Source of the DNA: Acidimicrobiales bacterium
GTDB lineage: Bacteria > Actinomycetota > Acidimicrobiia > Acidimicrobiales > CADCSY01
Length of the DNA: 11,141 bases
Assembly (NCBI GenBank): GCA_030447125.1
Contig: JAUJLZ010000011.1
Location: forward strand, 8,943 to 20,083
Direction of reading: 5' to 3'
How positions within the stretch are numbered: the stretch's first letter is position 1; each line of letters begins with the position of its first letter. A program made the position numbers and the translations under genes. The notes under the pieces are model-generated. The model was not told the origin of the DNA. It did no database searches and saw nothing but the letters and a program-made list of their open reading frames with translations. Shown piece by piece: positions 3,577-5,584 of the stretch.

Positions 3577-4014
3577 TCAGCGCGAATGGCGGTAGACGTT
3601 GGTGTCGCGGGGCTCGAAGCCGAGCCGGCGGTAGAGGCGGTTGGCGGCCTGGCGGGACGGACGGGAGGTGAGGTCGACGCTGCGGGCGCCGGCCGCGGCC
3701 GCTCGCTCCAGCGCCGAGCGGGTGAGGGCGTCGCCCACGCCCGTGCCCCGAGCCCCCTCGTCGACCACCACGTCCTCGATCCAGGCCCGCAGACCGGTGG
3801 GGATCCGAAAGAGCGCCAGGGTGAGGGTGCCCACGATCTCGCCGGCGTCGCTTCGAGCCACCAGCAGCGTGGTCGCCGGCGACGCCACCATCTCCGCCAG
3901 CTCGGCCTCGGTCGGCGGGGGTGACGACCGGGACAGCTGAGGGACCAGGCGGGCGAAGGCGGCGACCAGGTCGGGGGTGACCGCGGTGGCCTCGGCGATG
4001 GTGACCTCCCCCAC
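3577..4014 (-). CDS. GNAT-family N-acetyltransferase
   Basis: A 145-residue acetyl-CoA-dependent acetyltransferase spanning a single GNAT domain. Motif A is visible as a beta strand DVVVDEGARG followed by the pyrophosphate-binding loop RGTGVG (89-94). A C-terminal motif B follows: RQAANRLYRRLGFEPRDTNVY (121-141). The acceptor substrate, protein or small molecule, cannot be inferred. The GTG start lies 4 nt beyond the stop codon of the citrate synthase fusion, so the two are almost certainly co-transcribed and probably translationally coupled; I see no ribosome-binding site of its own. The pairing with an acetyl-CoA-consuming enzyme is suggestive but does not prove a functional link. Confidence 0.88.
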   Translation of the reverse strand: MGEVTIAEATAVTPDLVAAFARLVPQLSRSSPPPTEAELAEMVASPATTLLVARSDAGEIVGTLTLALFRIPTGLRAWIEDVVVDEGARGTGVGDALTRSALERAAAAGARSVDLTSRPSRQAANRLYRRLGFEPRDTNVYRHSR

Positions 4015-4018
4015 CGGG

Positions 4019-5584
4019 TCAGGCTTCGGGGACGGGCTGGGGCGGGGGCGGGCCCACGTAGCGGGCGCTGGGGCGGATGATGCGGTTGTCGGCGGCCTGC
4101 TCGAGGATGTTGGCGCACCAGCCGATCACCCGGCTGACGGCGAAGGTGGGGGTGAACATCTCCGGGGGGATGCCACAGCGCTCCATGACCACCCCGGCGT
4201 AGAACTCCACGTTGGCGTACAGCTCCCGCCCGGGCTTGAGCTCGGCCAGCACCTCCACGATGGTGCGCTCGACGGTGGTGGCGAACTCGGCCTTGTCGCC
4301 CCCCAGGCGCTGGGCCAGCTCCCGCAGCAGCGTGGAGCGGGGGTCCTCGGTCCTGTAGACCCGGTGGCCGAAGCCCATGATCCGGCCCCCGCCGTCCACC
4401 TCCCGGCGGATCCACTCCTCGGCCCGGGCCGGCTCCCCGATGGCCTCGAGCATGTCGAGGGCCCGGCTGGGGGCGCCGCCGTGCAGGGGGCCCGACAGGG
4501 CGCCGATCGCCCCCACCACCGCGGCACCGACGTCGGCCCCGGTGGAGGTGATGACCCGGGCGGTGAAGGTCGAGACGTTGAAGCCGTGGTCGACGGTGGA
4601 GATGAGGTACTGCTCCACTGCCCGGGCGTGCGCGGGCGCGGGGCGCCGCCCGCTCAGCATCCACAGGTAGTTGGCGGCGTGGGCCAGCTCGGGGTCGGGC
4701 TCGACCGGCTCCTCCCCCTGGCGGAGTCGGAACAGGGCCGCGACCAGGGTGGGCACCAGGGCGCACAGGCGCACGGCGTCGGCCCGCAGCTCCCCGGCGG
4801 GGATGTCGAGGCTGGGCCGGAAGCCCAGGGCGGCGGCGGTGAGCGACACGGCCGAGCGCAGGGCTTCGAGGGGCAGGAACGTCTCCCCGGTGTTGGCCAC
4901 GTCGCCCAGGAGCGGCCATAGGGTGTCGGGCAGGGTCCGCTGGGGACGGATCTCCTCGTCGAAGGCCACCTGTTGCTCGGCGGAGGGCAGCTCGCCGTCG
5001 AAGAGCAGCGTCCACACGTCCTCGAGGGTGCGCTTGTCGGCCAGCTCCCGAGCCGAGTACTGGCGGTAGTGGTAGAAGCCCTCCTGGCCCCGCACGTCGC
5101 CGATGACCGTGTCGGCCACGATCACCCCGGCCAGCCCCCTGGGAGCCTCGACCTCGCCGGGGTGGAGCATGGGCTGGATCTGGGCCACCTTCATCAGGTC
5201 GCGCATCGACACCACGCCCACCACCCGCCCGTCGTCGACCACGGGGATGTGGCGGTAGCCCCGCTCGGCCAGGCTGGCGAAGGCGGTGCCGGTCTCGGAC
5301 CCGGGCGCCACGGTGTCGGGCTGGGCGGTCATCCAGTCGGACACCGAGGCACGACGGCCGTCGGTTCCCGATGCCGCGAAGCGCACGATGTCGCGCTCGG
5401 TCACGATGCCCACGGCACGGAAGTCCTCGACCACCACCACACAGCTGACGCGCTCCTTGGCCATGCGGACCGCGACCTCGGCCATGGTCTCACCGGGAAG
5501 GGCGGTGACGGCGGGGGTGGTCATCAGATCGGCGACGGCGCGCCGGCGCGACAGGACGTGCTGGTTCACCGGACTCCTCGTCAT
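4019..5584 (-). CDS. Citrate/2-methylcitrate synthase with N-terminal CBS domain pair
   Basis: A 521-residue fusion. Two CBS domains (about 17-70 and 80-133) carry the adenosyl-ligand signatures GIVTERD (59-65) and GVVSMRD (123-129). A citrate synthase domain follows (about 148-512). Its condensation of acetyl-CoA with oxaloacetate is the entry step of the TCA cycle, though propionyl-CoA use cannot be excluded. Active-site motifs seen are DHGFNVSTFTAR (332-343), GPLHGG with His368, and GFGHRVY with His407. At the third catalytic position, NVEFYAG has Glu460 where E. coli GltA has Asp362. The tail RPSARYVGP and the other motifs resemble the shorter Streptomyces 'citrate synthase 2' group, which from memory also has Glu there. 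The CBS pair implies allosteric control by AMP/ATP-type ligands. Start ATG 5584 is chosen because CBS homology begins soon after it; an upstream extension to 6040 lies inside the next gene. A proline-rich tail (PPPPQPVPEA) ends the protein. Confidence 0.92.
   Translation of the reverse strand: MTRSPVNQHVLSRRRAVADLMTTPAVTALPGETMAEVAVRMAKERVSCVVVVEDFRAVGIVTERDIVRFAASGTDGRRASVSDWMTAQPDTVAPGSETGTAFASLAERGYRHIPVVDDGRVVGVVSMRDLMKVAQIQPMLHPGEVEAPRGLAGVIVADTVIGDVRGQEGFYHYRQYSARELADKRTLEDVWTLLFDGELPSAEQQVAFDEEIRPQRTLPDTLWPLLGDVANTGETFLPLEALRSAVSLTAAALGFRPSLDIPAGELRADAVRLCALVPTLVAALFRLRQGEEPVEPDPELAHAANYLWMLSGRRPAPAHARAVEQYLISTVDHGFNVSTFTARVITSTGADVGAAVVGAIGALSGPLHGGAPSRALDMLEAIGEPARAEEWIRREVDGGGRIMGFGHRVYRTEDPRSTLLRELAQRLGGDKAEFATTVERTIVEVLAELKPGRELYANVEFYAGVVMERCGIPPEMFTPTFAVSRVIGWCANILEQAADNRIIRPSARYVGPPPPQPVPEA

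Follow-up and report, generated by a model that had tools for sequence, protein, structure and literature searches.

The window, a stretch of 11,141 nucleotides on contig JAUJLZ010000011.1 of an Acidimicrobiales bacterium, contains on its minus strand one open frame coding for a pair of CBS domains joined by a flexible linker to a complete citrate synthase domain (Table 1). Both domain types match Pfam far above chance level: the CBS family (PF00571) in two stretches with 91.4 bits (cut-off 24, E 4.3e-26), and the Citrate_synt family (PF00285) with 376 bits (cut-off 27, E 2.3e-112). The frame joining the motifs GIVTERD and GVVSMRD to a citrate synthase, initially proposed in a sequence-only reading of this DNA, was confirmed where that reading had placed it. 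A GNAT acetyltransferase gene lies directly downstream and is likely co-transcribed with the fusion.

The fusion gene probably starts at the GTG rather than at the upstream ATG, because the codon aligned with the ATG encodes Thr in one close relative (L001) and Ile in another (L002), a possible ribosome-binding site precedes the GTG, and each of P0003 to P0009, all predicted relatives, is as long as the protein read from the GTG. The CBS pair is included whichever start is used. Compared with L002, the differences at the first, second and third codon positions number 13, 11 and 34 over the 121 codons of the CBS part, and 27, 24 and 88 over the 372 codons of the enzyme part; the pattern in the CBS region is that of coding sequence. 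As third positions vary most in both parts, and given the start evidence, the CBS pair is very probably translated. A translation start downstream of the CBS region, which the sequence-only reading had named as a way in which it could be wrong, is made unlikely by the length of the relatives, the aligned start codons and the coding type of substitution.

Table 1. Features of the fusion gene and its surroundings (residues counted from ATG 5584; positions are those of the window, or of the locus named).
Feature	Residues	Position	Strand	Remarks
CBS-CBS-citrate synthase gene		4019..5569	-	stop at 4019; preferred start GTG 5569, 516 aa
Alternative start of the same frame		ATG 5584	-	521 aa
GAGGAG, possible ribosome-binding site		5574..5579	-	4 nt upstream of GTG 5569, read from the sequence
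CBS domain 1	17-70	5375..5536	-	PF00571
GIVTERD	59-65	5390..5410	-	predicted ribose/phosphate half of nucleotide site S1
CBS domain 2	~81-133	5186..5344	-	second PF00571 stretch; limits approximate, from the model
YRHIP	110-114	5243..5257	-	predicted adenine half of S1
GVVSMRD	123-129	5198..5218	-	predicted ribose/phosphate half of S2
Linker	134-149	5138..5185	-	residues 135-142 with pLDDT under 50
Citrate synthase domain	150-506	4067..5137	-	PF00285
Active-site His	333	4586..4588	-	invariant in alignment A1
Active-site His (LHGGA)	368	4481..4483	-	invariant in alignment A1
Active-site His (GFGHRVY)	407	4364..4366	-	invariant in alignment A1
Glu at the catalytic-Asp place	460	4205..4207	-	from comparison of CitA-like loci
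GNAT acetyltransferase gene		3577..4014	-	4 nt downstream of the fusion; PF00583, E 1.7e-16
HTH(MerR-type)-citrate synthase neighbour, example		L040:4575-5936
HTH(MerR-type)-citrate synthase neighbour, example		L038:4713-5939
HTH(MerR-type)-citrate synthase neighbour, example		L078:4095-5330

Of central interest is the CBS pair. In CBS domains, the motif G-h-h-T/S-x-x-D/N contacts the ribose and phosphate of a bound nucleotide and h-x-x-h-P contacts the adenine (excerpts of PMC6429129; the former motif also in excerpts of PMC11172384). At the predicted site S1 of the fusion, the ribose/phosphate motif is kept in 63 of 64 CBS rows, the exception being L136 with Ala for Gly, and the adenine motif in all 64, as are R64, R111 and H112. 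At S2, the ribose/phosphate motif is present in 61 of the 64 rows and R128, the counterpart of R64, in 62, and the Pro of the adenine half is missing throughout (64/64). Among the 60 proteins of alignment A1 that were taken from the window or retrieved by database search, and overlap in origin with the 64 rows, each S1 motif is found in 59 and the S2 motif in 58. The alignment of the CBS region (A2) excludes three duplicates (L111, L131, L156), four cut, damaged or weakly matched loci (L018, L026, L072, L142) and CBS scores under 100. The S2 Asp is lost in L021, L022 and L153 as well as in the divergent L157, L158 and L159, in all of which S1 is intact, and this decay of S2 next to an unaltered S1 points to S1 as the likely working site.

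The structural model of the CBS pair (pLDDT 92.5) matches chains solved with AMP (2rif), with AMP, ADP, ATP and Ap4A (AcuB) and with a nucleotide (5g5x). Close structural matches also include a SAM/MTA pair (3kpb, MJ0100), a zinc pair (1xkf) and several chains without a nucleotide in their title. By both sequence and fold, the pair matches IMP dehydrogenase and AcuB, whose catalytic or partner domains differ from that of the fusion; in IMP dehydrogenase the CBS pair is inserted rather than N-terminal. The CBS-domain pyrophosphatase likewise is a metabolic enzyme with a built-in CBS pair and the same ribose-phosphate motif, with another catalytic domain and reaction; it is inhibited by AMP and ADP and activated by ATP and diadenosine polyphosphates (excerpts of PMC11172384). 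A nucleotide-type CBS site in the fusion is supported by these motifs, and the earlier suggestion that the pair belongs to the adenosyl-nucleotide type agrees with the retention of the published adenine-nucleotide motifs at S1.

We therefore favour, as a rather likely reading, that the fusion is a CitA-type citrate synthase gated by an adenine nucleotide at its N-terminal CBS pair, mainly at S1; we infer the ligand, the dimeric disc described below and the direction of the response. A point against nucleotide gating is that the S1 and S2 motifs occur in many CBS proteins. The pair might also sense another adenosyl ligand (c-di-AMP, Ap4A, SAM or MTA), and so report a second messenger or the methylation state. 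MJ0100 with SAM/MTA and AcuB with Ap4A are indeed among its structural neighbours, but the Arg at the phosphate-contact place of both half-sites (R64 and R128) favours a phosphate-bearing ligand over SAM while being compatible with c-di-AMP and Ap4A; in MgtE, the Arg at the place equivalent to R64 touches the phosphates of ATP (excerpts of PMC6429129). We regard such a ligand as a possibility of clearly lower standing than an adenine nucleotide.

It is less likely still that the pair is a ligand-free oligomerization or scaffold module with no part in metabolic sensing. Such a role would fit the faster divergence of the CBS pair compared with the enzyme part (for example 52% versus 71% identity between L006 and the window), the degeneration of S2 in places and the existence of relatives without a CBS pair. 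On the other hand, the ligand-motif residues T62, E63, D65, R111, H112 and P114 are the same wherever the 89 CBS rows of A1 carry a letter. This uniformity is suggestive only, since positions outside the motifs (M21, M41, V51, M85) are likewise unvaried in these rows.

Turning to the catalytic part, all 50 Foldseek matches listed are citrate or methylcitrate synthases, the fold is that of type II enzymes, and the top 10 matches reach target-normalized TM scores of 0.89-0.92 to citrate synthases (0.89 for 2c6x). In alignment A1 (60 of 121 proteins, plus 63 loci), the residues H333, H368, H407, R416, E460, R485 and R504 are invariant; the catalytic histidines that the sequence-only reading had recognized thus stand. 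The fusion has E460 in place of the catalytic Asp of ordinary citrate synthases (NVDFYSG): every one of 80 CitA-like loci has Glu here, and each of 16 ordinary citrate synthases from carrier genomes has Asp. The best solved relative of the enzyme part is Bacillus subtilis CitA, citrate synthase 1 (PDB 2c6x, 294.6 bits), which shares the active-site motifs and the same Glu (NVEFY), but is a chain of 363 residues without a CBS pair. Since the Glu is common to B. subtilis CitA, it marks the CitA-like group and does not exclude the fusion from it. We conclude that the enzyme part is a CitA-like type II citrate synthase with a complete active site carrying an Asp-to-Glu exchange.

The mycobacterial CitA proteins, titled 'putative citrate synthase 2' (6wgy, 8gm9 and others), share the type II fold and are more distant from the fusion (~225 bits); with 379-380 residues they have no room for a CBS pair, and their PDB titles describe pyruvate-bound and cysteine-variant forms. 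They presumably carry the same NCBIfam name, PRK12350, as the model that recognizes the fusion. Beside its ordinary citrate synthase, Caulobacter has two more genes of citrate synthase type whose locus tags are consecutive, CitB and CitC; CitB, with 37% identity to B. subtilis CitA, can stand in for GltA in E. coli, and CitC is inactive there; unlike in the fusion, no CBS domain is mentioned for either in the available excerpts of that paper (PMC7083601).

We counted as full length any fusion whose match begins at residue 40 or earlier and ends at residue 519 or later; 42 of 296 Acidimicrobiia genomes have one, the sample being taken from the class to which G002, the genome of an Acidimicrobiales record, belongs. 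Twenty-eight of these 42 carriers also hold an ordinary citrate synthase, full in 27 (at least 445 bits) and long but partial in G174 (403 bits), two (G040, G238) have only fragments of one, and no other PF00285 protein was found in the remaining 12. Within these 12 genomes, aconitase, RpoB (twice in part) and ribosomal protein L16 are each found in 11, and all three in nine, among them G147 with a 3.0 Mb contig of ~3.2 Mb in total; incomplete assembly may explain some of the 12 absences, but probably not all. The Glu-type enzyme can therefore probably serve the TCA cycle. In a first set of 20 carriers, which shares G002 and G012 with the 42, an ordinary citrate synthase was present in 16, a fragment in G006 and none in G008, G011 and G014. 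The ordinary enzyme is present in each of the genomes of L001 to L005, the five nearest relatives of the window, and the organism of the window thus probably has two citrate synthases.

These counts bear on the proposal, made from the sequence, that the fusion places the entry of acetyl-CoA into the TCA cycle under adenylate control. In the organism of the window it probably does not do so alone, as most carriers and all five nearest relatives possess a second citrate synthase, which is also a point against the favoured reading; in the 12 sole-enzyme genomes the proposal would apply, provided that an adenylate is the ligand.

They also bear on whether the catalytic part works mainly as a 2-methylcitrate synthase in propionate degradation, or as an enzyme altered by the Asp-to-Glu exchange, rather than as a citrate synthase of the TCA cycle. 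Asp375, the residue in question, is presumably numbered as in the animal enzyme. It takes the proton from acetyl-CoA (excerpts of PMC5830745), so that a Glu should matter for the rate and may lower or alter activity, though the alignment with 2c6x has the same Glu. Among the 25 NCBIfam models listed, only the subfamily model PRK12350 exceeds its cut-off (351.7 versus 332 bits), and the equivalogs for bifunctional 2-methylcitrate/citrate synthases match below theirs (304.9 versus 479 and 251.1 versus 550 bits). PrpD_N occurs in four of the 12 sole-enzyme genomes, including G147, the best assembled, which would suit a methylcitrate role. This role is weakened by the absence of PrpD_N from the other eight, by the fusion being the sole PF00285 protein in all 12, and by the nearest solved relative being a citrate synthase that likewise has the Glu. 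On balance, we consider a main function outside the TCA cycle unlikely, and retain the CitA-type citrate synthase gated at S1 as the preferred reading.

Both Pfam domains occur in 119 of the 120 best homologues (out of 7999 scored), the exception being P0042, a protein of 397 aa. Among genome contigs, 80 of 110 confirmed loci were kept, of which 31 have a CBS profile match, two of them partial; the titles of the CBS loci name mostly Acidimicrobiia or unresolved Actinomycetota. In L026, an internal stop interrupts the CBS region, which also contains a repeated stretch, and in L072 the middle of the pair is missing, each before an intact-looking enzyme part; either decay or assembly error may account for this damage. 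In the genome set, the match of G130 starts only at residue 146, and the profile finds CBS in its longer frame; G225, with a match beginning at residue 54 and no CBS profile match in its sequence, was rejected as a carrier. A sample of the phylum gave full-length matches in 10 of 149 genomes, three of them divergent (47-51% identity), with the enzyme and S1 motifs kept and Gln at the S2 Asp. The CBS-CBS-Citrate_synt arrangement, whose mapping the sequence-only reading had suggested, is conserved and spread in Acidimicrobiia. A chance joining of two genes or an assembly artefact is refuted, because numerous further assemblies, among them one with a 3.0-Mb contig, have the identical join and both parts show coding-type substitution.

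That reading also knew of no characterized enzyme of this kind, and our literature search of open-licence PMC articles found no paper on a CBS-citrate synthase. Both parts are of known kinds, and their joining appears to be new. Genome G348 encodes a divergent CBS-citrate synthase (L159) together with a non-fused CitA-like gene (L160). Two records seem to be mislabelled: L017 bears the title Thermoanaerobacterales but clusters with records of Acidimicrobiales, and the gene of L055, whose title is Kitasatospora, hardly differs from that of Williamsia muralis.

The surroundings of the gene differ between lineages. A GNAT gene lies downstream of 28 of 66 scorable CBS fusions, that of the window included, and is a clade-specific neighbour; we rejected it as an obligate partner. 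An analogy with AcuA and AcuB is conceivable. A further neighbour is a gene encoding a second citrate synthase domain, called in these counts by its citrate synthase profile match and not by HTH; of the scorable rows, 35 of 44 without the fusion and 12 of 56 with CBS have it. It is usually head-to-head with the CitA-like gene, and convergent in L042. All nine neighbour proteins that were scanned match HTH or MerR families, seven of them past the curated cut-off, and for one neighbour protein the precomputed annotation gives HTH_17 in 119 of 120 listed homologues. The three active-site His positions are occupied by His in 40, 39 and 38 of 40 aligned neighbours, and at the catalytic-acid position 38 have Asp and two have Glu; the fold, with its active site mostly kept, may act here as a metabolite-sensing regulator. 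HTH-citrate synthase neighbours are seen in many Actinobacteria, in 12 CBS-fusion rows and in two loci titled Chloroflexota (L073, L078).

Within the 57-row clade of the window (SH-aLRT 86), the neighbour is absent from all 44 scorable CBS rows, and outside this clade it is present in all 12 CBS rows. It is also missing from nine of the 44 scorable non-fused rows, six of them Catenulispora or Catenulisporales records, and the supported branches give only two independent contrast pairs of CBS and neighbour, so that a replacement of the neighbour by the CBS pair is best taken as a conjecture.

In a test of a single origin of the fusion, one clade of all CBS rows was rejected (p-AU 0.0041; 32 rows versus 52). 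A larger tree of 117 rows has six changes of CBS state; it excludes the duplicates L111, L131 and L156, as well as L141 and loci whose main match to the enzyme profile is under 450, and keeps L078 as outgroup despite its score, this locus being left out of the counts. The CBS state of L052, cut at a contig end, was left unscored. Both trees were built quickly and leave many forks open, and so do not separate repeated gain from repeated loss. Non-fused relatives lie among fused ones on the tree, and L165 (952-2169), whose enzyme part is 69% identical to that of the window, has no CBS match in ~950 bases upstream; the sensor is therefore dispensable in some lineages, and L165 is a natural sensor-less comparison enzyme. 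In the window itself, DNA identity to L001 over ~4030-5215 reaches ~99% only within the enzyme domain and drops to roughly 86% on either side, with the breaks at the CBS/enzyme border and the gene end, which would fit either one-domain recombination or a chimeric assembly.

How might nucleotide gating at S1 work? Two chains would form the usual citrate synthase dimer, and their two CBS pairs would meet as a disc beside it. S1, built from GIVTERD and YRHIP, would bind AMP or ADP, which ATP would displace, and this exchange would alter the shape of the disc, a change that the short linker would pass on to the open-closed motion of the enzyme. In the model of the whole protein (pLDDT 90.1, pTM 0.74), residues 135-142 have low confidence, so that no fixed signalling path is visible. 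AMP and ADP would raise activity and ATP would lower it, and acetyl-CoA would therefore enter the cycle when energy is low; we hold this to be the likelier direction, at no better than an even chance.

A broader scenario is speculative: in some Acidimicrobiia, the sole citrate synthase would be a Glu-type CitA gated by adenine nucleotides at S1, so that citrate formation, and possibly the reverse cleavage, would read the energy charge, and an earlier control of expression by a head-to-head HTH-citrate synthase would have given way to the CBS sensor. Acidimicrobiia occur widely in nature, and for this class a reversed oxidative TCA cycle via citrate synthase has been proposed (both from excerpts of PMC11697166).

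The fusion may thus be of interest beyond this locus. Bacterial citrate synthases are tuned by NADH, ATP or 2-oxoglutarate. If our reading is true, an integral CBS sensor would add a new mode of regulation to the step that opens the TCA cycle, a step for which no enzyme other than the fusion was found in some genomes.
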